Shown here one piece after another: positions 4,564 through 20,619 of a stretch of 64,000 nt of DNA. Made by a program: the position numbers and the translations under genes. The first letter of the stretch is position 1; each line of letters starts with the position of its first letter. Source of the stretch: a bacterium (GTDB taxonomy: Bacteria; Hinthialibacterota; Hinthialibacteria; OLB16); contig JAJVIK010000019.1 in NCBI GenBank assembly GCA_022072055.1, positions 62,001 through 126,000 on the forward strand, read 5' to 3'. Below the pieces are notes generated by a model. That model was not told the origin of the DNA and ran no database searches. It was given only the letters and a program-made list of their open reading frames with translations.

Positions 4564-7314
4564 CTATCGGCCCAGGTAATAGGCCAGCGCGGGAGTGTTC
4601 CAGAAACAGTTCAACACATCGTTGAGCGTTCCCTCGACCACGGTCTGTTTCCATGCCGCAAGCGCGGCATTCCGGAATTCCTCATCTCGCGTTAGATCAT
4701 GGGAGAAAAAGAGGCACGGCGCGATCAGCACATGGTAGCTGCTGTTCTTCTTGAAATGCGGATTGTGGGAGTATCCGAAAATGTCCCCCGGAACCCCGCG
4801 CGTTTGATTCTCACAGAGGATGGACTCCGCCAAACCCGCCGCGATTTTCGCCGCCGCCAAGTCGCCCGTTGCCCGATAGAACAGATAAAGCGGCTCGATG
4901 AGTTGAGCCACCATCCAGGGCACATTCCCGCGGTAGTTCCAGTTGCCATGCACCTCCGGGTAACACCCTCGAAGCGGATCGATTCGGTTTGCGGCGATAT
5001 CTCGGATCAATCGTTCCGCGCCCTCCCGAAAGATCGGTTCACGGGTTTCGCGGTAGGCGCTCACTAGGGACATCAGCACTCCGGCGTGATCGCGCACGGA
5101 GCCCGCGCCCAGCGCGCGGCTTGTCTCGACCAAGCGTCGCGCCATCGAGAGCGCGCGAGCGTGAAACTCATGGTTACCCCAGATGTGAGCCGCTCCCAGA
5201 ATCCCGTTCATCCGTAGAATCGGGTTCCATGGCTCCATGCTGGTGTGGTTGGTTCCATACCCATGCGGGAGCCCAACCCATTCGGGATGGTCTGGACAAG
5301 AATGAATCCAGTCCACATCGATCGTGTGCCGGACAGTCTGCTCCAGCGCATCGGCCCACACCCGGTTACCGGTCAGCAGATAGGCGGCGATGAAACCCTG
5401 CCGAAGGTCATAGTATCCGTTGCGCCATGAATCCGTGGCGGTGTAGATAAGGTCGCCAAAGTCGCGGGGGCCTTTGCCCCATCCGAGGCTTGCTCCCAAC
5501 GGATCGGGGTATCTTTCCTCCAGGAAACGGGAGAGTTCTCGGTTCGATTCCTCGTCCGCCGGACGCGCCAGCCCGAACGCCCCGGACCGGCACAGGTTTG
5601 TGGCGTTGACCAGCAGGGGTGGGCGCTCAAAATTCTCCGCGATGTGTCGGGCCTCCTCCTGACCCGCCTTGTCCGACAAGGTCGCCAGGAGCATCTGAAA
5701 GGTCTTGGCCTCGCCGGGAGTGAAGGGATAACCGCGAGTGGAGTGGACGTTGGTGAAGGCCAGCCAGGAAACTCGAGTCTCGCGGGAGGTCTCTCGAATC
5801 TCGATCCCCGCCTGCCCGGTGGCTCGGGCGTGACGGACCCCCGCGAGGCGCCGGGGCGCGCCCTCCGAAAGAAGCCAACCGCTGAACTCGCGCTCGGATG
5901 TCGAATCCCCGATCCAGTGACGCCCCCGGTCATCCAAGAGGGAGTGGGTTTTCCCCGACCCGTCCGCACTTCCCTTGGGGAGCTGCGCCTCGACGCGCAG
6001 CTCCGCGAGCGGACTTGGAAAAACATCCTCAAAGAAGACCCGGAGTTCGACTTGGTGAATCGCGCATGCCACGAAACCCACGACGGACAACTCAACACGG
6101 CACGGCAACGACTCGCCGTCCTCCCTGCGGAGCAGCCCCATTGCGGCGGCCTTCCCGGAGAACCCATCCGGTTCAGTCCGGACTCCCTCAAGAGCGGTGG
6201 ACCACTCGGTTTCATCCGAGAGCGTTGCCACGGCCCGGAACACCAGCTGATCCGTTCGAAACCCCTTTCGATCCGGGGTGAGTTCCGAGGAGATTGCGGG
6301 GATTGCGGTGTCCATCTGGGTCTGCTCCGGAGAGATTCCGACCTCAAAGGTCCGCCCCTCCTGTCCGCGCTGAGTCGTGAACCGGACCACCGCCCAGCGG
6401 ACCGAACCGTCCGGCCAGGTGGACATGCGCGTGAAGCCGGCTGGAACGAGCTCGCCTTCCGGTCCACGGAGCGCAAGGTCCGAGACCTTGGTGGTCCTCC
6501 CCTCCGGCAGCGGAACCCCACAGTGAACCGGAAAACCGCTCGCCGGAATCGGGGCCACGGTCTCCAATCGGAAAGAAAGGGGCCGGGTCAAGTCCGGATC
6601 GCTCTCCGAGCGAATCGGCCAGCCTGTCTTGTGGATTTCCTCGACCTTTCGGTGGATCGGCGGTGCAAGGGGAGGGAGTGCCTCATCCTCGCCAAGGAGG
6701 TGGATGTTTCCCCAATACACATGGGTCATGAAGCGTGGCGGATCGCCCGGAGCTTCCGCGGCGGTTTCCGTGGTCCCGATGTGCTGAGTGTCGGAGGCAA
6801 GCCGGATATTTGAGGCCACCCTGTCCGCCACACGGAAGGCGATTTCGATTCCGTCTTCCGGCTTGAAAAGACTTGGGAGCGGAACCACGTATGTTCCGGA
6901 GACCGAGGGTGGGTTCGGGTCGGCCACATCCGACTCCCATGCCAGGGTTCGATTGACCCAGACCTGTTTATAGCGGTGCCCCAAGAAGCCATCGCCGCCC
7001 AGCCAACTGTCGTTTCTCGCCCGCCAGAAGTCGTTGAAGTAGTCATCACTGACCGAGAAGGACAGCCGTTGTGGGGCCGGCGCGCCTTGTGGAAATTCAA
7101 TGGTCGCGCGGGCTTCAGCGAAGGAACCGGTGCATGAGGGAACCCAAGGGTGGGACATCACGATCAGTTCCCGGCGGTCTGTCCAGACCTGATAGGCGCC
7201 GGTGGAGGCAAGGACAAAACGGTCGGCGGCGAGGCTCGAATCGGTCGAGGAGACGGCGGATACTGGGAGTAAGGCGGCAAGGAGCAGGCATCCGAGAGCA
7301 CCCTCAATCCTCAC
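4564..7314 (-). CDS. Secreted RIFT-barrel (PcRGLX/YetA-like) protein
   Basis: A 916-residue exported protein. Residues 1-24 or so are a signal peptide. A segment near residues 255-340 contains FPVHCGVPLPEG, a basic/aliphatic linker, and STWPDGSVRWAVVRF, which match the N-terminal RIFT barrel of the exo-rhamnogalacturonan lyase-like PcRGLX/YetA family. The C-terminal 350 residues look all-helical with repeated aromatic/Gly motifs (YYDLRQGFIAAYLLTG, GLPHGYGTNHTSMEPWNP), consistent with an alpha/alpha toroid as in polysaccharide lyases. A role in uronate or pectin-type polysaccharide cleavage is inference from the family; catalytic residues were not assigned. The start overlaps the 3' end of the sigma-54 activator by 11 bases, so the two are probably cotranscribed. 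Confidence 0.7.
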   Translation of the reverse strand: MRIEGALGCLLLAALLPVSAVSSTDSSLAADRFVLASTGAYQVWTDRRELIVMSHPWVPSCTGSFAEARATIEFPQGAPAPQRLSFSVSDDYFNDFWRARNDSWLGGDGFLGHRYKQVWVNRTLAWESDVADPNPPSVSGTYVVPLPSLFKPEDGIEIAFRVADRVASNIRLASDTQHIGTTETAAEAPGDPPRFMTHVYWGNIHLLGEDEALPPLAPPIHRKVEEIHKTGWPIRSESDPDLTRPLSFRLETVAPIPASGFPVHCGVPLPEGRTTKVSDLALRGPEGELVPAGFTRMSTWPDGSVRWAVVRFTTQRGQEGRTFEVGISPEQTQMDTAIPAISSELTPDRKGFRTDQLVFRAVATLSDETEWSTALEGVRTEPDGFSGKAAAMGLLRREDGESLPCRVELSVVGFVACAIHQVELRVFFEDVFPSPLAELRVEAQLPKGSADGSGKTHSLLDDRGRHWIGDSTSEREFSGWLLSEGAPRRLAGVRHARATGQAGIEIRETSRETRVSWLAFTNVHSTRGYPFTPGEAKTFQMLLATLSDKAGQEEARHIAENFERPPLLVNATNLCRSGAFGLARPADEESNRELSRFLEERYPDPLGASLGWGKGPRDFGDLIYTATDSWRNGYYDLRQGFIAAYLLTGNRVWADALEQTVRHTIDVDWIHSCPDHPEWVGLPHGYGTNHTSMEPWNPILRMNGILGAAHIWGNHEFHARALSMARRLVETSRALGAGSVRDHAGVLMSLVSAYRETREPIFREGAERLIRDIAANRIDPLRGCYPEVHGNWNYRGNVPWMVAQLIEPLYLFYRATGDLAAAKIAAGLAESILCENQTRGVPGDIFGYSHNPHFKKNSSYHVLIAPCLFFSHDLTRDEEFRNAALAAWKQTVVEGTLNDVLNCFWNTPALAYYLGR

Positions 7315-8833
7315 CGCTGTTCGACCCCTTTTCGGTGGAGGCGATCCCTAGCGTGCGCATCAGGCGAGAGAGGTTGGGTTGACGCAGCCCCAGGCGCTTC
7401 GCCGCGCGAGTCTGGTTTCCACGCTCCAGCATCAACGCACGGCGCACCAGCCGAGCCTTGAACTCATCCACGGCCTCCGATAGCGGGAGGTTTTCCAGCG
7501 GGTCCTCGGCGCCCACCGAGGCTCCCCCGACCTCAATGGGGAAATCCTCCTCGACAAGGACCTCCCCGCGAGCCAGGACCACCGCTCGCTCGATCAGATT
7601 GGCGAGCTGGCGCACATTCCCCGGCCACTCATACCCTTGCAGTTTCTTGAGCGCTCCATCGCTGATCTCGATCTCAGGGACCCCGAGATCGCGGCAGGTC
7701 TTGCGGATAAAGTGACGCGCCAGCGGAGTGACATCGTCTCTGCGTTCACGCAGCGGCGGGAGGTGGATCGAAACTACATTCAGGCGATAATAAAGGTCCT
7801 CGCGGAACTTGCCCTCCGCCACCGCCTTTTCAAGCGGCCTGTTCGTCGCGGCGATCACCCGGATGTCGGCGGAGATGTCCTTGGTTCCGCCGACACGCTG
7901 GAATTCATGCTCCTGGAGAACGCGCAGCAGCTTGGTCTGAATGTCCGGACCGATATCGCCGATCTCATCCAGGAAAACGCTCCCGCCCTCCGCGAGCTCA
8001 AACTTCCCTTTCTTTTGGGCGATGGCTCCGGTGAAGGCCCCTTTTTCATGGCCGAACAGCTCGCTCTCCAGCAGTTCCGGGGAGAGCGCCACCGTGTTGA
8101 CCACCATGAGGGGCTGTTCCGCGCGCGGGCTCCACTTATGGATGGCGCGCGCGAATATCTCCTTGCCGGTCCCGCTTTCGCCCCGGATGAGGACCGTGGA
8201 CTTGGTCCGGGCGGCGCGCTGGGCGATGTCGATCACTTCCTTGAGCGACTTTGACTCGCCGACAATCGCTCGAAACTGGTTGCCCAGCTCTTGACGGTAC
8301 GCCTCCTTTTCGAGCTGCACATTGGCCAGGGTCTGCGCGTTCCGAAGAGCAACCGCGGCTTGCGAGGCGAGCGCCTCCAGCAGGCGGAGGTCCTCCGCCT
8401 GAAACCCAGATGAGTTTCGGGAATTAATGGCCTCGATGGCTCCGACCACTCGACCCCGAAACTCCATCGGGGCGCAGAGGATCGATTGGGTCTGGAATCC
8501 GACCTGGCGGTCGAGGTCGGAATAAAACCGAGGGTCTTTGGCCACCTCATTGACCAGGACCGACTGGCGGTTGCTGACCACCCACCCGACAATCCCCTGG
8601 CCGGGCTTGAGACGGACTTGTTTGAGGTTGTCGCTCCCCCCCTCGATGGTGTGAAACAGGATGTCCCCGGTCTCCGGCTCGACCGTGAGGAGGCTGCACC
8701 CCTCCACGTCAAACAGATCCCGGATCGTGCTCAATATGGTCGAAAGCAGCTCGGAGGTGTCCAGCGTGCTGCTGATCAAGCGGTTGACCTCGATCAGGCG
8801 CTCAAGTCGATGTTGCGAGGGGGTGGGGGGCAT
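7304..8833 (-). CDS. GAF-domain sigma-54-dependent activator (NifA-like architecture)
   Basis: A 509-residue enhancer-binding protein that remodels RNA polymerase-sigma-54. An N-terminal GAF domain (about residues 15-165) probably senses a small ligand. The AAA+ domain (about 190-425) has Walker A GESGTGKE, the sigma-54 contact loop GAFTGA, and Walker B SVFLDEIGDI. A Fis-type helix-turn-helix (about 465-500, GNQTRAAKRLGL) ends the protein. No receiver domain is present, so it is not a classical two-component regulator. The downstream lyase-like gene overlaps it. A sigma-54 type promoter is found at 22297-22312, a possible target. The ATG has no visible Shine-Dalgarno sequence. Confidence 0.92.
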   Translation of the reverse strand: MPPTPSQHRLERLIEVNRLISSTLDTSELLSTILSTIRDLFDVEGCSLLTVEPETGDILFHTIEGGSDNLKQVRLKPGQGIVGWVVSNRQSVLVNEVAKDPRFYSDLDRQVGFQTQSILCAPMEFRGRVVGAIEAINSRNSSGFQAEDLRLLEALASQAAVALRNAQTLANVQLEKEAYRQELGNQFRAIVGESKSLKEVIDIAQRAARTKSTVLIRGESGTGKEIFARAIHKWSPRAEQPLMVVNTVALSPELLESELFGHEKGAFTGAIAQKKGKFELAEGGSVFLDEIGDIGPDIQTKLLRVLQEHEFQRVGGTKDISADIRVIAATNRPLEKAVAEGKFREDLYYRLNVVSIHLPPLRERRDDVTPLARHFIRKTCRDLGVPEIEISDGALKKLQGYEWPGNVRQLANLIERAVVLARGEVLVEEDFPIEVGGASVGAEDPLENLPLSEAVDEFKARLVRRALMLERGNQTRAAKRLGLRQPNLSRLMRTLGIASTEKGSNSGED

Positions 8834-9208: not shown

Positions 9209-11593
9209 ATGACCCAACGCCTTTTTCCGATGTTTCCTGTCGCGTGCCTCTTCCTCCTCGGCGCGGCCACCCCCACGCCCCGGCCCACCGGACCGCAGAT
9301 TATCCTGACTCCGATCAACGGCGCGCCGAGCGTCTTCGAACTGGTCCGGGTGGAAGGGGAGACCGTGGAGGTCCGCAAGGAGGGGGTGCGCCTTCAGTTC
9401 TCCCGCGCGCAAGTCAAGAGCGCTAGGAACGCCGAGGCTGAGGCTCTATTGGAAGAGGCCAGCCGAACCCTGGCGGAGGTTGAATCGCAAGATCTCGGTC
9501 GCTTCGAGGCCCTCGTCGGTCGTCTGGATCGGCAATCCAAGGCCCTTTCCGGAGTCGCCTCCCGGTTCGCCTGGTTGATTCCGGCCGCGTCTCCAACCCT
9601 TACCTCGCTGAACCAAGCCCTCTCCGATGTTCAATCCACGCTGGATGCGGTCCAGACGCTTCAAGGAGAAGGGGACCGACTGGAGAAGATGGCGCGGGGC
9701 AGCATCCCGCTGGATGCCACCTGGGAGGAGTCTTTCAATGTCGCGCTGGAGCAGGCCAACCTCATCCCCTATCCCGTGATCCGCAAGGACATCGTGGACC
9801 GCCTGGTGGGGCTGAGGCGGGACATTCGACTGGATCTCGCCAAGGGGGCGCAAGCTTCCGCGGACCGAGTGGCGAAGCTGAACGATGAGTTGCAGGCCGC
9901 CCTCGTCAAGGGAGAGTTGACCGAGGCGCGCGCCACGCTCCTGATCAAGGAGATGAGGCGATACGCGATCAAGGTGCCGGAGGCCGACCGTCGCGCGGAG
10001 CTGGAATCCCTGATTGCGAGGACCGAAACATTCGTGGCCTCGTCCTTAGAGAGGCTTGCTCGAACGCGAGCGGAAAAGGCGGCCCGCGCGACCATTCAGG
10101 AACTCCAGGAAAATGTCGGCAAGGCGGCTTCCCAGCGTGACTTGGCCGGTTTTTCGGCTCGGCTTGAGGACGCGCGAGAGGCTGCCGCGGCGCTCTCCGC
10201 TCCGACCTCGGAGGAGCTGGTGGCATTGCTGGAGGAGGTGTCCCAGCATTTCTCCGCCCTGCCCGCCGAGCCTCCCCAACCGGCCACCGCCGCGGTGACC
10301 GGCGCAGTGCAAGAGCCTGCTCCCGCTTCTGCTGAACCTCAGAGTGCTGGGAAGCCGGGGGACTTGGTATCCCAGGTGCTGGCGTATGTCCCCGAATCCC
10401 TTCGGCCTCACCTCTCCAACCTTTGGTTCTGGAATGGCGTGCTTGCAGTCCTCTTGGTCACGCCCAAGCGCGTGCTGGTTCCCGCGCGGCGCAAGAAGGC
10501 GGCGGCGGTCCGCTCCGAGTCGCCTGAACTCGCCCGGGTCTCCCGGAGAGCGTCAACAGCGACGGAGGATGACGAGCTCTTCGGGCCTGCTGTGTCCCCA
10601 GTGGCGGCCTCTGCTCCCTTGGCCGCGGTGGTCGCGGCTTCCAGGCCCGAACCGGTGGCGCCGAAGAAACCTGAGGAAGATGTCTTTGGCTTCGGGCCCG
10701 GCACGTCAGTCACAGCCGAAGCGATGCACGCTCCGGCTCAGCCGGATAGCCCTCCAGCCGCGCCGGTCACCGTGTCACCAAAGGTCCCCAAAGAGGAAGA
10801 CCCGTTCGCCGTGGTGGATGAAGTTTTTGCCACCGCTCCCCCCACGGTTCAGGAACCGAAGGTCGAACCCGAACCGGTCGCGCCCACCCCACCATCCTCC
10901 GCGGCGAAAGAGGCGGATCCCTTTGGCTTCGGAGACACGCCGGTGGAGTCGATCTTGGCCTCCGCTCACAAACCGGAGCCGCCCAAACCAGTGGAGAAGG
11001 AGCTCGAGGCCAAGAAGACATCTGCCGAGGAGGACCCCTTCGGGTTCGGCCCCGAACCCCTGGAAGACTTCGCGCCGGTTGCCGCGCCACCAGCCCCCGC
11101 GCCGACTCCGTCGCAAGTTCAAACGGCCATCAAGCCGCCCGAGGAGGATCCCTTTGGGTTCGGCTCCGAACCGGTGACCGAGATTCCTGAACCGCCGCCT
11201 CCAGCCCGACCCCCTGAGCCCGCAGCGCCACCGCCACCGGTGGCGGAGACTCCCCCACCCCCCGTGGCCGAGTCGGCGCCCCCAGCGCCCGAGCCGGACT
11301 TGTCGCTTGTGGCCGCCGGGGAGGAGGATGAGGATCTCCTCTTGCTGGATCCGTTCGGGTACGAAACCGATCCCGAAACCCTTCTCCCACACGAACTCGA
11401 GGCTGCGCCAAGCCCTGGCCCCGCCCACGCCCCGGGCGGGGGGTCGGACGACCTTGGGTTTGATGTCGAGGACCCGTTCGGGCTGATCCAGGGGAGTGTG
11501 TTCGAGGAGGAGCCGCGCCCCTCTCCCGCGCCTCCACCGCCGGATGTTCTCGACGAGGAAGACCCCTTCGGACTTGGGAAGGATAACGGCTGA
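9209..11593 (+). CDS. Membrane-anchored coiled-coil protein with eight DPFG motifs
   Basis: A 794-residue protein I cannot assign to a family. Residues 1-22 form a signal peptide or anchor, followed by a small beta-rich stretch (SVFELVRVEGETVEVRKEGV) and a long helical, charged, coiled-coil-like region (about 70-360). A single hydrophobic segment near residues 405-425 (NLWFWNGVLAVLLV) is followed by a basic stop-transfer patch (RRKK). The last 330 residues are Pro/Ala/Glu-rich and probably disordered, carrying eight copies of a motif close to EEDPFGFG, the first five 38-40 residues apart. With a signal peptide in front, the motif tail should face the cytoplasm. A cytoplasmic tail with repeated short motifs suggests a scaffold or multivalent binding partner; this is inference. 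Confidence 0.75.
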   Translation: MTQRLFPMFPVACLFLLGAATPTPRPTGPQIILTPINGAPSVFELVRVEGETVEVRKEGVRLQFSRAQVKSARNAEAEALLEEASRTLAEVESQDLGRFEALVGRLDRQSKALSGVASRFAWLIPAASPTLTSLNQALSDVQSTLDAVQTLQGEGDRLEKMARGSIPLDATWEESFNVALEQANLIPYPVIRKDIVDRLVGLRRDIRLDLAKGAQASADRVAKLNDELQAALVKGELTEARATLLIKEMRRYAIKVPEADRRAELESLIARTETFVASSLERLARTRAEKAARATIQELQENVGKAASQRDLAGFSARLEDAREAAAALSAPTSEELVALLEEVSQHFSALPAEPPQPATAAVTGAVQEPAPASAEPQSAGKPGDLVSQVLAYVPESLRPHLSNLWFWNGVLAVLLVTPKRVLVPARRKKAAAVRSESPELARVSRRASTATEDDELFGPAVSPVAASAPLAAVVAASRPEPVAPKKPEEDVFGFGPGTSVTAEAMHAPAQPDSPPAAPVTVSPKVPKEEDPFAVVDEVFATAPPTVQEPKVEPEPVAPTPPSSAAKEADPFGFGDTPVESILASAHKPEPPKPVEKELEAKKTSAEEDPFGFGPEPLEDFAPVAAPPAPAPTPSQVQTAIKPPEEDPFGFGSEPVTEIPEPPPPARPPEPAAPPPPVAETPPPPVAESAPPAPEPDLSLVAAGEEDEDLLLLDPFGYETDPETLLPHELEAAPSPGPAHAPGGGSDDLGFDVEDPFGLIQGSVFEEEPRPSPAPPPPDVLDEEDPFGLGKDNG
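10673..11580 (+). repeat. Eight-copy DPFG amino-acid motif array
   Basis: Motif Asp codons lie at 10679, 10799, 10916, 11033, 11147, 11348, 11471 and 11561. The first five are spaced 120, 117, 117 and 114 bases apart. Motif versions seen include EEDVFGFG, EEDPFAVV, EADPFGFG, EEDPFGFG (twice), LLDPFGYE, VEDPFGLI and EEDPFGLG. The linkers between motifs are Pro/Ala/Val-rich and vary, so selection appears to act on the motif itself. Confidence 0.85.
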
Positions 11594-14984: not shown

Positions 14985-15114
14985 GGAAATGGAAAGCCCG
15001 ATAGTCTACCACACCCGAAGAGGAGAAGCGGAGGCCTCCCGGATGCGCTCTACACACCCCCCACCGTTTTCCGTACAATCAGTCGGCTCTTAATGTGACA
15101 TGGAGGTTGGCTCA

Positions 15115-16272
15115 ATGTCTGAAGCGGTTCTCACTCCCCCAGTTCCGCCGATTGCGAGCGAGGGTCCCGCCAAGGACCCCCGCAAGGTGAATATCAAGGT
15201 CCTGCTTGAGGAAATGGTCCGGTTTAACGCCTCCGATCTGCACCTCAAGTGCGGCAGTCCGCCCTGTTTCCGGATTAACGGCGTTCTCAAGAAGGCCAAC
15301 ACGCCACCCTTGATGCCCGATGACACTCTCGGGATGGCCAAGGAACTGGCCCCCGCGCGAGTGACTGAGATTCCCCCCATCGGATCGCTGGATTTCTCCT
15401 ACGCCATCCCAGGAGTGGCCCGCTATCGCGTCAACGTTTTTCACCAACGCGGCAACATCAGCCTGGTCATCCGCAAGGTCAACATCGAGCTCCCCAAGTT
15501 CGAGGACATCAATCTCCCGCCGGTGATTGAGAAGTTCGCCGACTACGAGCGCGGGATCATTCTGGTCACCGGGGTCACCGGCAGCGGCAAATCCACCACC
15601 CTGGCCGCGATCCTGAACCGGATCAACAAGACCCGCAACGCCCACATTGTCACCATCGAGGACCCGATTGAGTTCCTCTACCGGGACGAGAAATGCATCA
15701 TCAACCAGATGGAGCTGGGGATCGATTTCGAGTCCTTTGAGGATGCGATGAAGCGGGTTCTGCGCCAGGATCCTGACATCATCCTGGTGGGTGAGATGCG
15801 CGACCGAACCACGATCCGCGCGGCGATCACCTCCGCCGAGACCGGCCACTTGGTGTTCAGCACCCTCCACACCGGCGACACCGCCACCACGGTCGAGCGT
15901 ATCCTGAAGCATTTCGACGCCGACGAGCATGAGTTGGTGTTGCAGCAGCTTTCCAACAACCTCCGAGGGGTCATTTCCCAGCGCCTTCTCCGGCGCGCGG
16001 ACGGAAAGGGGCGAGTCCCGGCGCTCGAAATCATGGTCGGAACGCCGATTGTCCAAAAGCTCATCTATGAGGGCCGCCTTAAAGACCTCAAGGCGGCTGT
16101 CCAGAACCGCGAGGGGGGAATGCAGACCTTCAATCAGCACCTCCTGGAGCTGCTCGAGGCCGGAACGGTGACGAAGGAAGAGGCCCTGCGTTATGTGGAC
16201 AACATCCCTGCCTTTGAGCGGATGCTGCGCGGCGGGCTGTCATCCGGCGATGGCACCGGGTTGATCGGTTGA
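15115..16272 (+). CDS. pilT: Type IV pilus retraction ATPase PilT
   Basis: A 385-residue hexameric motor ATPase that depolymerises type IV pili for twitching motility. After a Pro-rich lead the PilT N-domain begins (LLEEMVRFNASDLHLKCGSPP), followed by Walker A GVTGSGKSTT, the Asp box TIEDPIEFLY, Walker B DIILVGEMRD, and the His box TGHLVFSTLHT. I prefer the ATG at 15115, seven bases after GGAGGT; the in-frame ATG at 15100 overlaps that ribosome site. PilU is the alternative, with no second copy here to compare. Two pilin-like genes are elsewhere in the window. The stop overlaps the next start as TGATG. Confidence 0.93.
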   Translation: MSEAVLTPPVPPIASEGPAKDPRKVNIKVLLEEMVRFNASDLHLKCGSPPCFRINGVLKKANTPPLMPDDTLGMAKELAPARVTEIPPIGSLDFSYAIPGVARYRVNVFHQRGNISLVIRKVNIELPKFEDINLPPVIEKFADYERGIILVTGVTGSGKSTTLAAILNRINKTRNAHIVTIEDPIEFLYRDEKCIINQMELGIDFESFEDAMKRVLRQDPDIILVGEMRDRTTIRAAITSAETGHLVFSTLHTGDTATTVERILKHFDADEHELVLQQLSNNLRGVISQRLLRRADGKGRVPALEIMVGTPIVQKLIYEGRLKDLKAAVQNREGGMQTFNQHLLELLEAGTVTKEEALRYVDNIPAFERMLRGGLSSGDGTGLIG

Positions 16273-19521: not shown

Positions 19522-20619
19522 TTACTCCTCTCCCGAGCGGTAAATCTGACGGTAAGCCTCCGCCTGGACCAAATTGAGGAGAGGATATCCGAGGCCGAGA
19601 AAGAGCACGGCGGGCAGGAAGAGGATCAGCTGCCCGGCGATCAAGACAAAGACCCCGAACCAGTTCCTTCCAGTTCCTCGCAGGGCCTTCGCGACCGCCT
19701 CGGCCGGATGGAGCTCCTCGATCCCTGTCACCAAATTCAAAAACCAGCAGCGCGCGACAATCAGCCCCTGGGCCGCCAACAGCCCGCTGTCCCACCACAG
19801 CATTTCATGCGAGCCGAGCATCCCCCACGCCAATCGGAGCAGGAGCGGAAGCAGCATCAAGCCGTTCGCGGCGCACATGCCGAACACCTGTTCCAGGGCC
19901 TCGCGCCCCATCCGACGCATCGGCGGATCCGTCTCGGTGAGGACTCGATGGCAGTAAAGAGCGTGCATCCCCAAGAGGGAGTTGGAGAGCAATCCTCCAA
20001 CCAGGGCCAATAGAGTGGCGATGAAGGGAGAGGAGCCCGCGAGGGGGATCACCCAGGAGAGGAACAGACTGATCACCCCGACCTGGGCCACCAGGGCGAT
20101 CAGGCCGCTGAGGTAGAGTTTCCGGAACGAACCGCGATAGACGCTCCGCGCGGTTCGCCACACCGCCCCCAGGCGCAACACACCCGGGTCCAACTTCTCG
20201 CCCGCGCGCACACGCTCCGCGAAAGTGGGCCGCGCCGGCATCGGCGGCGCCCACTCCGGAATGATCTCGCGGGAGCGCTCGGCCGCGCCGGTTCCGAACG
20301 GGTCCTCCTCTTCGCCGGGCAGCAGGAACGGCTCCTCGCGCGAGGGGAGGCTCGCAAGGGCCAACTGCTCACGCCGGATCTCTTCCTCCAGCTGCCGCGC
20401 GGCCGCGTTCACGGGGGCGATCCGGAGCAGCGTTTCAAGAACCCGCGCCGCCTCTTCAAGCCGTTCCAGGCGCAGGAGACAGGCCGAGGCGCCATACAAG
20501 GCATCCGGGTTTCCGGGATTGTGTTCCAGAATCAGGTGAAACTCCTCGAGGGCGTCCCGATAGTACCCCCGGCGGGCGGTTTCGTAGGCCGAGGACACCA
20601 GGGTCCGAAGGTCGCTCAT
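19522..20619 (-). CDS. TPR/membrane protein carrying one DPFG motif
   Basis: A 365-residue protein without a known family. Residues 1-90 form TPR-like repeats (AYETARRGYYRDALEEFHLI, LYGASACLLRLERLEEAARV). A charged linker around residues 100-120 contains GEEEDPFGTG, almost the same as the repeated motif of the 9209-11593 protein. The C-terminal half has about five or six hydrophobic helices with short loops, like Yip1 or similar multipass domains. The N-terminal TPRs should be cytoplasmic. Its ATG overlaps the stop of the aldehyde dehydrogenase (ATGA), so it is translated after that gene. Confidence 0.7.
   Translation of the reverse strand: MSDLRTLVSSAYETARRGYYRDALEEFHLILEHNPGNPDALYGASACLLRLERLEEAARVLETLLRIAPVNAAARQLEEEIRREQLALASLPSREEPFLLPGEEEDPFGTGAAERSREIIPEWAPPMPARPTFAERVRAGEKLDPGVLRLGAVWRTARSVYRGSFRKLYLSGLIALVAQVGVISLFLSWVIPLAGSSPFIATLLALVGGLLSNSLLGMHALYCHRVLTETDPPMRRMGREALEQVFGMCAANGLMLLPLLLRLAWGMLGSHEMLWWDSGLLAAQGLIVARCWFLNLVTGIEELHPAEAVAKALRGTGRNWFGVFVLIAGQLILFLPAVLFLGLGYPLLNLVQAEAYRQIYRSGEE

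Follow-up and report, generated by a model that had tools for sequence, protein, structure and literature searches.

A predicted envelope-anchored protein of Hinthialibacteria with repeated DPFG motifs in an acidic disordered tail

Eukaryotic membrane traffic and signalling make frequent use of arrays of conserved short motifs set in disordered tails that evolve fast; to our knowledge, few such arrays have been defined in bacteria, whose disordered regions are usually labelled low-complexity linkers. The acidic-FG peptides of the gamma-ear/GAE type, which belong to eukaryotic clathrin adaptors, consist of acidic residues followed by F-G-x-hydrophobic; they come close to EEDxFGF, the form of the motif described below, and we know of no homologous domain in bacteria. 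Caulobacter PopZ and PodJ, in which we know of no motif array of the DPFG type, are described in the literature as gathering clients through disordered acidic or proline-rich hub regions, a likeness to the protein described here that is not accompanied by any sequence or domain relation. In the eukaryotic endocytic protein Eps15, numerous DPF triplets in the disordered C-terminal part bind a shared partner, namely the alpha-adaptin appendage and also some EH domains (PMC2238750). Defining features of the Eps15 type further include EH domains and a coiled coil in the protein itself. The bacterial polar landmark proteins HubP, FimV and TspA possess a signal peptide, a periplasmic region, one transmembrane (TM) helix and a long unstructured acidic cytoplasmic region, and the imperfect acidic repeats of HubP differ in number and composition between genera (PMC12918733).

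The protein described here, hereafter the rod protein, resembles both HubP/FimV and Eps15 in design. It combines one TM helix with a long acidic cytoplasmic region, in a predicted topology, and contains DPF seven times within a disordered region. However, neither the rod protein nor its orthologs yielded a Pfam match to a LysM-like domain up to E 1, no C-terminal FimV (TPR) domain was matched in it by Pfam or NCBIfam, and no EH domain was found in it by Pfam; because these searches did not detect the defining domains, the protein is best regarded as a member of neither group. In contrast to HubP/FimV, it is predicted to have a small beta-barrel and then spectrin-like helices in the periplasm, and its repeated unit has a sharp D-P-F-G core. 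Eps15 serves as a comparison of design only, since there is no homology, the rod protein is bacterial, and a G after F is nearly obligatory in its tail.

The open reading frame initially annotated at 9209-11593 on the plus strand of the window (the whole analysed stretch of 64,000 nucleotides) is present, and its features are collected in Table 1. By sequence and model, the protein runs from a signal peptide through approximately 370 periplasmic residues and one TM helix into the tail. A layout of signal peptide, periplasmic rod, single TM helix and cytoplasmic tail is thus predicted, the AlphaFold2 model having been built from three sequences. The basic stretch PARRKK directly after the TM helix suggests that the tail lies on the cytoplasmic side. 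In Foldseek searches, the barrel matched Hfq (rmsd approximately 1.5 Å over some 46 columns, E 0.2-0.5) and the top match of the rod was beta-spectrin (E 0.008, with low TM-scores); spectrin and Hfq-like shapes were the only matches of the model, none at E < 0.001, and the likeness is for this reason read as a resemblance of predicted shape and not as proven kinship. Neither Pfam nor NCBIfam covers the protein with any family (the top Pfam match, PLU-1, has E 0.097 and falls below the cut-off), in keeping with the initial remark that no described family with the motif was known. The disorder initially ascribed to the acidic, Pro/Ala-rich tail was borne out by the model, in which pLDDT is mostly < 50, and its length proved slightly greater than the 330 residues given (377, residues 418-794). 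The C-terminus is likewise disordered and ends in DPFGLGKDNG.

Table 1. Coordinates of the rod protein, its motif copies and related features in the window
Feature	Position	Strand	Basis
GAF + sigma-54 AAA+ + HTH regulator, divergent neighbour	7304..8833	-	Pfam
Membrane protein (rod protein), 794 aa	9209..11593	+	ORF; AlphaFold2 model; orthologs in two other genera
Small beta-barrel (predicted), Hfq/Sm-like shape, residues 30-74	9296..9430	+	five strands, pLDDT 85-89
Long-helix rod (predicted), spectrin-repeat-like, residues 75-349	9431..10255	+	pLDDT mostly 80-97
TM helix (predicted), about residues 396-417	10394..10459	+	sequence; helix 405-417 in model; same place in orthologs
Tail, predicted disordered, residues 418-794, 22% Pro, net charge -44	10460..11590	+	model, composition
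ELFG, degenerate copy, residue 456	10574..10585	+	sequence
DVFG, motif copy, residue 491	10679..10690	+	sequence
DPFA, motif copy, residue 531	10799..10810	+	sequence
EVFA, degenerate copy, residue 538	10820..10831	+	sequence
DPFG, motif copy, residue 570	10916..10927	+	sequence
DPFG, motif copy, residue 609	11033..11044	+	sequence
DPFG, motif copy, residue 647	11147..11158	+	sequence
DPFG, motif copy, residue 714	11348..11359	+	sequence
DPFG, motif copy, residue 755	11471..11482	+	sequence
DPFG, last copy, residue 785, C-terminus six residues further	11561..11572	+	sequence
TPR-membrane protein, 365 aa: N-terminal TPR, linker, multi-pass membrane domain	19522..20619	-	TPR_19 E 1e-9
DPFGTG, residues 106-111, in TPR-to-membrane linker	20287..20304	-	identical in OFTM149 (G002) ortholog

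The tail contains six exact DPFG copies together with DVFG, DPFA, EVFA and ELFG, with the consensus (acidic)(acidic)-D-[P/L/V/I]-F-[G/A]-[F/L]. The eight copies counted in the initial annotation are recovered as the six exact ones plus DVFG and DPFA, with EVFA and ELFG as two optional degenerate extras. When the tail was shuffled 200,000 times, DPFG occurred at most twice, so that composition cannot account for the six copies observed. The reported spacing of the first five copies (residues 491 to 647) at 38-40 residues was also reproduced, with gaps of 40, 39, 39 and 38 residues, a regularity that has P ~0.0006 under random placement. In the six exact copies, the codons for D, P, F and G agree throughout at their first and second positions and vary at the third in all four, which indicates that these copies do not stem from a recent duplication of the DNA. 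No array of the motif unit was detected by Tandem Repeats Finder. The linkers retain a weak mutual similarity beyond that of shuffles, and nearly all aromatic residues of the tail sit in evenly spread patches.

The source genome (5.86 Mb, 32 contigs) belongs to a family that contains two other genera; the ortholog comparison covers these three genera only and the phylum-level comparison 14 genomes. Orthologs of the rod protein were found in Candidatus Hinthialibacteria bacterium OLB16 (G001; contig LMZT01000104.1) and in a genome deposited as Omnitrophota OFTM149 (G002; contig JAJDBZ010000129.1), with approximately 37% and 29% identity, respectively, over the alignment. A family scan with the first alignment of seven sequences gave no usable pattern, and one with an alignment of three sequences returned the two known orthologs and nothing else. 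The OLB16 ortholog is complete and ends some 45 residues past the TM helix in a short tail, with no motif in this tail or in any frame downstream, which indicates that the motif-bearing tail is, as judged from this ortholog, not essential to the family. Since OLB16 is devoid of the whole tail and not merely of the motif, the situation named initially as contrary evidence, a motif lost from linkers that are kept, was not encountered.

On its contig (C34), the OFTM149 ortholog is cut off by the contig end right behind its TM helix and the basic residues that follow, and the motif would therefore be expected in the remainder of the protein if it matters. A scan of this genome for [E/D][E/D]DPF gave two matches, both in one short contig, C415. 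This contig opens partway through a reading frame of 259 residues, which is acidic and has the composition of a disordered region. The frame carries DDDPFGLS, SDDLFGIS, GEDPFGFS, PVDLFASA, EEDPFGLL, VDDLFGSP and, 14 residues ahead of the stop, EEDIFGFG, and thus seven D[PLI]F[GA] in all (three DPFG and three D[LI]FG among them). Its three DPFG compare with a maximum of two over 300,000 shuffles, and its six D[PLVI]FG with a maximum of two over 100,000, the broadened motif having been defined after C415 was seen and the exact DPFG count not. We infer a join of the two contigs in which the C415 tail is probably the remainder of the truncated ortholog on C34. Their ends do not overlap, and codon usage was not informative as to the coding strand of the C415 tail. 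A second truncated homologue in OFTM149, on C470, likewise breaks off where its contig ends, near residue 195-230; for it to be the source of C415, some 200 residues including the TM helix would have to be missing.

When the motifs were masked, the tails of the source genome and C415 aligned no better than shuffles (score 44, null 47 +/- 7.5), whereas the unmasked tails reached a score of 142; in the two tails taken together, all 17 F residues that come after [DE][PLVI] have G or A as their next residue. This combination is the pattern of a short linear motif that is conserved while its linkers vary freely, as had been proposed initially, and a multi-copy motif amid unrelated linkers in a second genus is strongly suggested. 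The copies on C415 are spaced at 35, 28, 34, 57, 23 and 17 residues; because regular spacing is not kept there, the 38-40 residue spacing in the source genome is likely a trace of an old duplication and not a functional ruler.

A single further copy had been placed at 20285-20315, and it was found in this stretch as the DPFGTG of a TPR-membrane protein encoded 8 kb from the rod protein. Within the phylum, a full-length ortholog of this protein occurs in OFTM149 only, with 31% identity overall; the linker is otherwise divergent, the blocks kept in it being DPFGTG and R-E-(EI)-IIPEW. IIPEW was considered as a second shared motif and rejected, its real coding contexts being the two TPR orthologs only. 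OLB16 encodes only an unrelated TPR-linker-TM protein that does not carry the motif, and the absence of both the tail motif and the TPR-membrane protein from this genome is consistent with a joint loss, of which three genomes prove nothing.

The enrichment of the motif across the genome that had been anticipated did not materialize: pattern scans found it in frame and in a disordered region in only two proteins, and exact whole-genome scans with five spellings ([E/D]DPFG, [E/D][E/D]DPF, DPFGxG, DPFGFG and [E/D][E/D]D-hydrophobic-FG) revealed no third protein with the motif in a plausible disordered region. This outcome had been named initially as contrary evidence, though a code limited to two proteins would give the same result. 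The other matches mostly represent wrong-frame open reading frames, prepilin-like proteins with the usual D-P-F/W-G turn, TPR-like loops and catalytic domains. Three apparent paralogs in the source genome (L006 and L033 on C6, L032 on C5) carry [KE]EDPF[SG]L in their C-terminal part, which is helical and TPR-like; there it is by appearance structural and not a tail motif. In another family of the phylum, a sialidase-like/Y_Y_Y protein (genome G005, contig C47, L261:1907-4978, minus strand) has its TM helix at the C-terminal end, and the short tail beyond it contains AEEDLFGEER, VDDDFLGGG and DDDLFSRD, which may represent the motif in an unrelated protein.

The retention of the motif while the linkers changed in another genus suggests a multi-site docking arm, and an envelope-anchored multivalent arm of this kind, itself a prediction, has about an even chance of being the correct reading of the rod protein. 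The beta-barrel, helical rod and single TM helix are predicted to anchor the protein in the inner membrane, with the wall- or envelope-facing rod carrying a long acidic disordered cytoplasmic arm of 8-10 motif copies. Each copy would bind weakly to one and the same groove of a cytoplasmic partner, and through the multivalency of many copies the partner would be gathered at the membrane. The TPR-membrane protein, given its conserved copy, probably competes for the same partner or is gathered by it; its TPR domain might, speculatively, be the partner itself. The scaffold system proposed initially for the two proteins likewise has the standing of a candidate. A wider proposal, more doubtful than the docking arm, is that Hinthialibacteria use a private docking code, (acidic)2-D-[P/L/V/I]-F-[G/A], on the cytoplasmic face of the inner membrane, by which several unrelated membrane proteins (the rod protein, the TPR-membrane protein and perhaps the sialidase-like single-TM protein) would be gathered by one undescribed adaptor, as a bacterial parallel, in design, to the DPF code of endocytosis. 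Should a partner be found, the protein would offer a clear-cut case of a multivalent docking code in bacteria, from a phylum whose cell biology is almost unexplored, and the motif peptide is simple enough for immediate use as bait.

Among the rival explanations, it is unlikely, though less so than for the others, that the aromatic/acidic patches act as generic stickers in a sticker-and-spacer condensate, in which the tail would self-associate or phase-separate at the membrane in the manner of a system with no specific groove. A long, highly charged, low-complexity disordered tail with evenly spread aromatic patches and linkers free to vary is what such a condensate calls for; however, generic stickers need neither a D before nor a G or A after the F, yet this arrangement holds in all 17 cases across two genomes, and the isolated copy conserved in the TPR-membrane protein is found where one sticker would do little. 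That copy argues equally against a lineage-specific low-complexity expansion of little or no function, in which an ancestral unit of approximately 39 residues was duplicated and is now drifting. The regular spacing of five copies, the residual linker similarity and the missing tail of OLB16 speak for such an expansion, while the restriction of differences between exact copies to third codon positions and the outlasting of the linkers by the motif in OFTM149 make it distinctly improbable.

Two further alternatives represent specific forms of the docking explanation. In a polar landmark of the HubP/FimV type, the periplasmic part would bind the cell wall and the acidic repeat tail would recruit polar clients such as pilus components. 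The shared plan, in which a periplasmic domain and a single TM helix precede a long acidic cytoplasmic part whose repeats differ between genera (PMC12918733), as well as a nearby pilT gene (PilT family protein, 15100-16272), agree with this role, which is nevertheless given a low chance: the LysM and FimV C-terminal TPR domains were not found, and pilT does not adjoin the OLB16 or OFTM149 orthologs in the stretches read. Short acidic peptides are frequent ligands of TPR domains, and the TPR domain in the TPR-membrane protein could accordingly have DPFG as its ligand, with the copy in that protein acting as a tethered pseudo-ligand that would be displaced by the 8-10 tail copies. The position of that copy just past the TPR domain fits this scheme, as does the presence of both proteins in the source genome (G000) and OFTM149 and the absence of both features from OLB16; yet co-occurrence is not established by three genomes, and the structure model of the TPR-membrane protein, built on a two-sequence alignment, leaves the motif undocked in a linker with pLDDT < 50, a placement of very low confidence, so that the pairing seems rather improbable. 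The multivalent docking arm in its general form is the reading we prefer.

With respect to gene neighbourhood, the rod protein gene has the GAF/sigma-54 regulator as its divergent neighbour in the three genera, and all remaining neighbours differ. No sigma-54 promoter was found upstream of the rod protein gene by the -24/-12 pattern with up to two mismatches, and the regulator is treated as genomic context of the rod protein. An operon with the downstream HU and Asp23 genes was rejected, as this pair lies together in OLB16 and OFTM149 but away from the rod protein ortholog. The rod protein also has paralogs in the source genome (L026, C11), OLB16 (L024, C42) and OFTM149 (L025, C601), for two of which a Pfam scan gave no significant match. 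A motif array in these paralogs was considered and rejected, their acidic tails being devoid of a DPFG array and at least two of them having an extra C-terminal domain. The paralogs comprise a TM helix and an acidic linker, with the extra C-terminal domain on the cytoplasmic side, repeat-like and possibly a beta-propeller. The OLB16 paralog, on the minus strand of its contig, is seemingly split across two overlapping frames by a frameshift in either the gene or the assembly.
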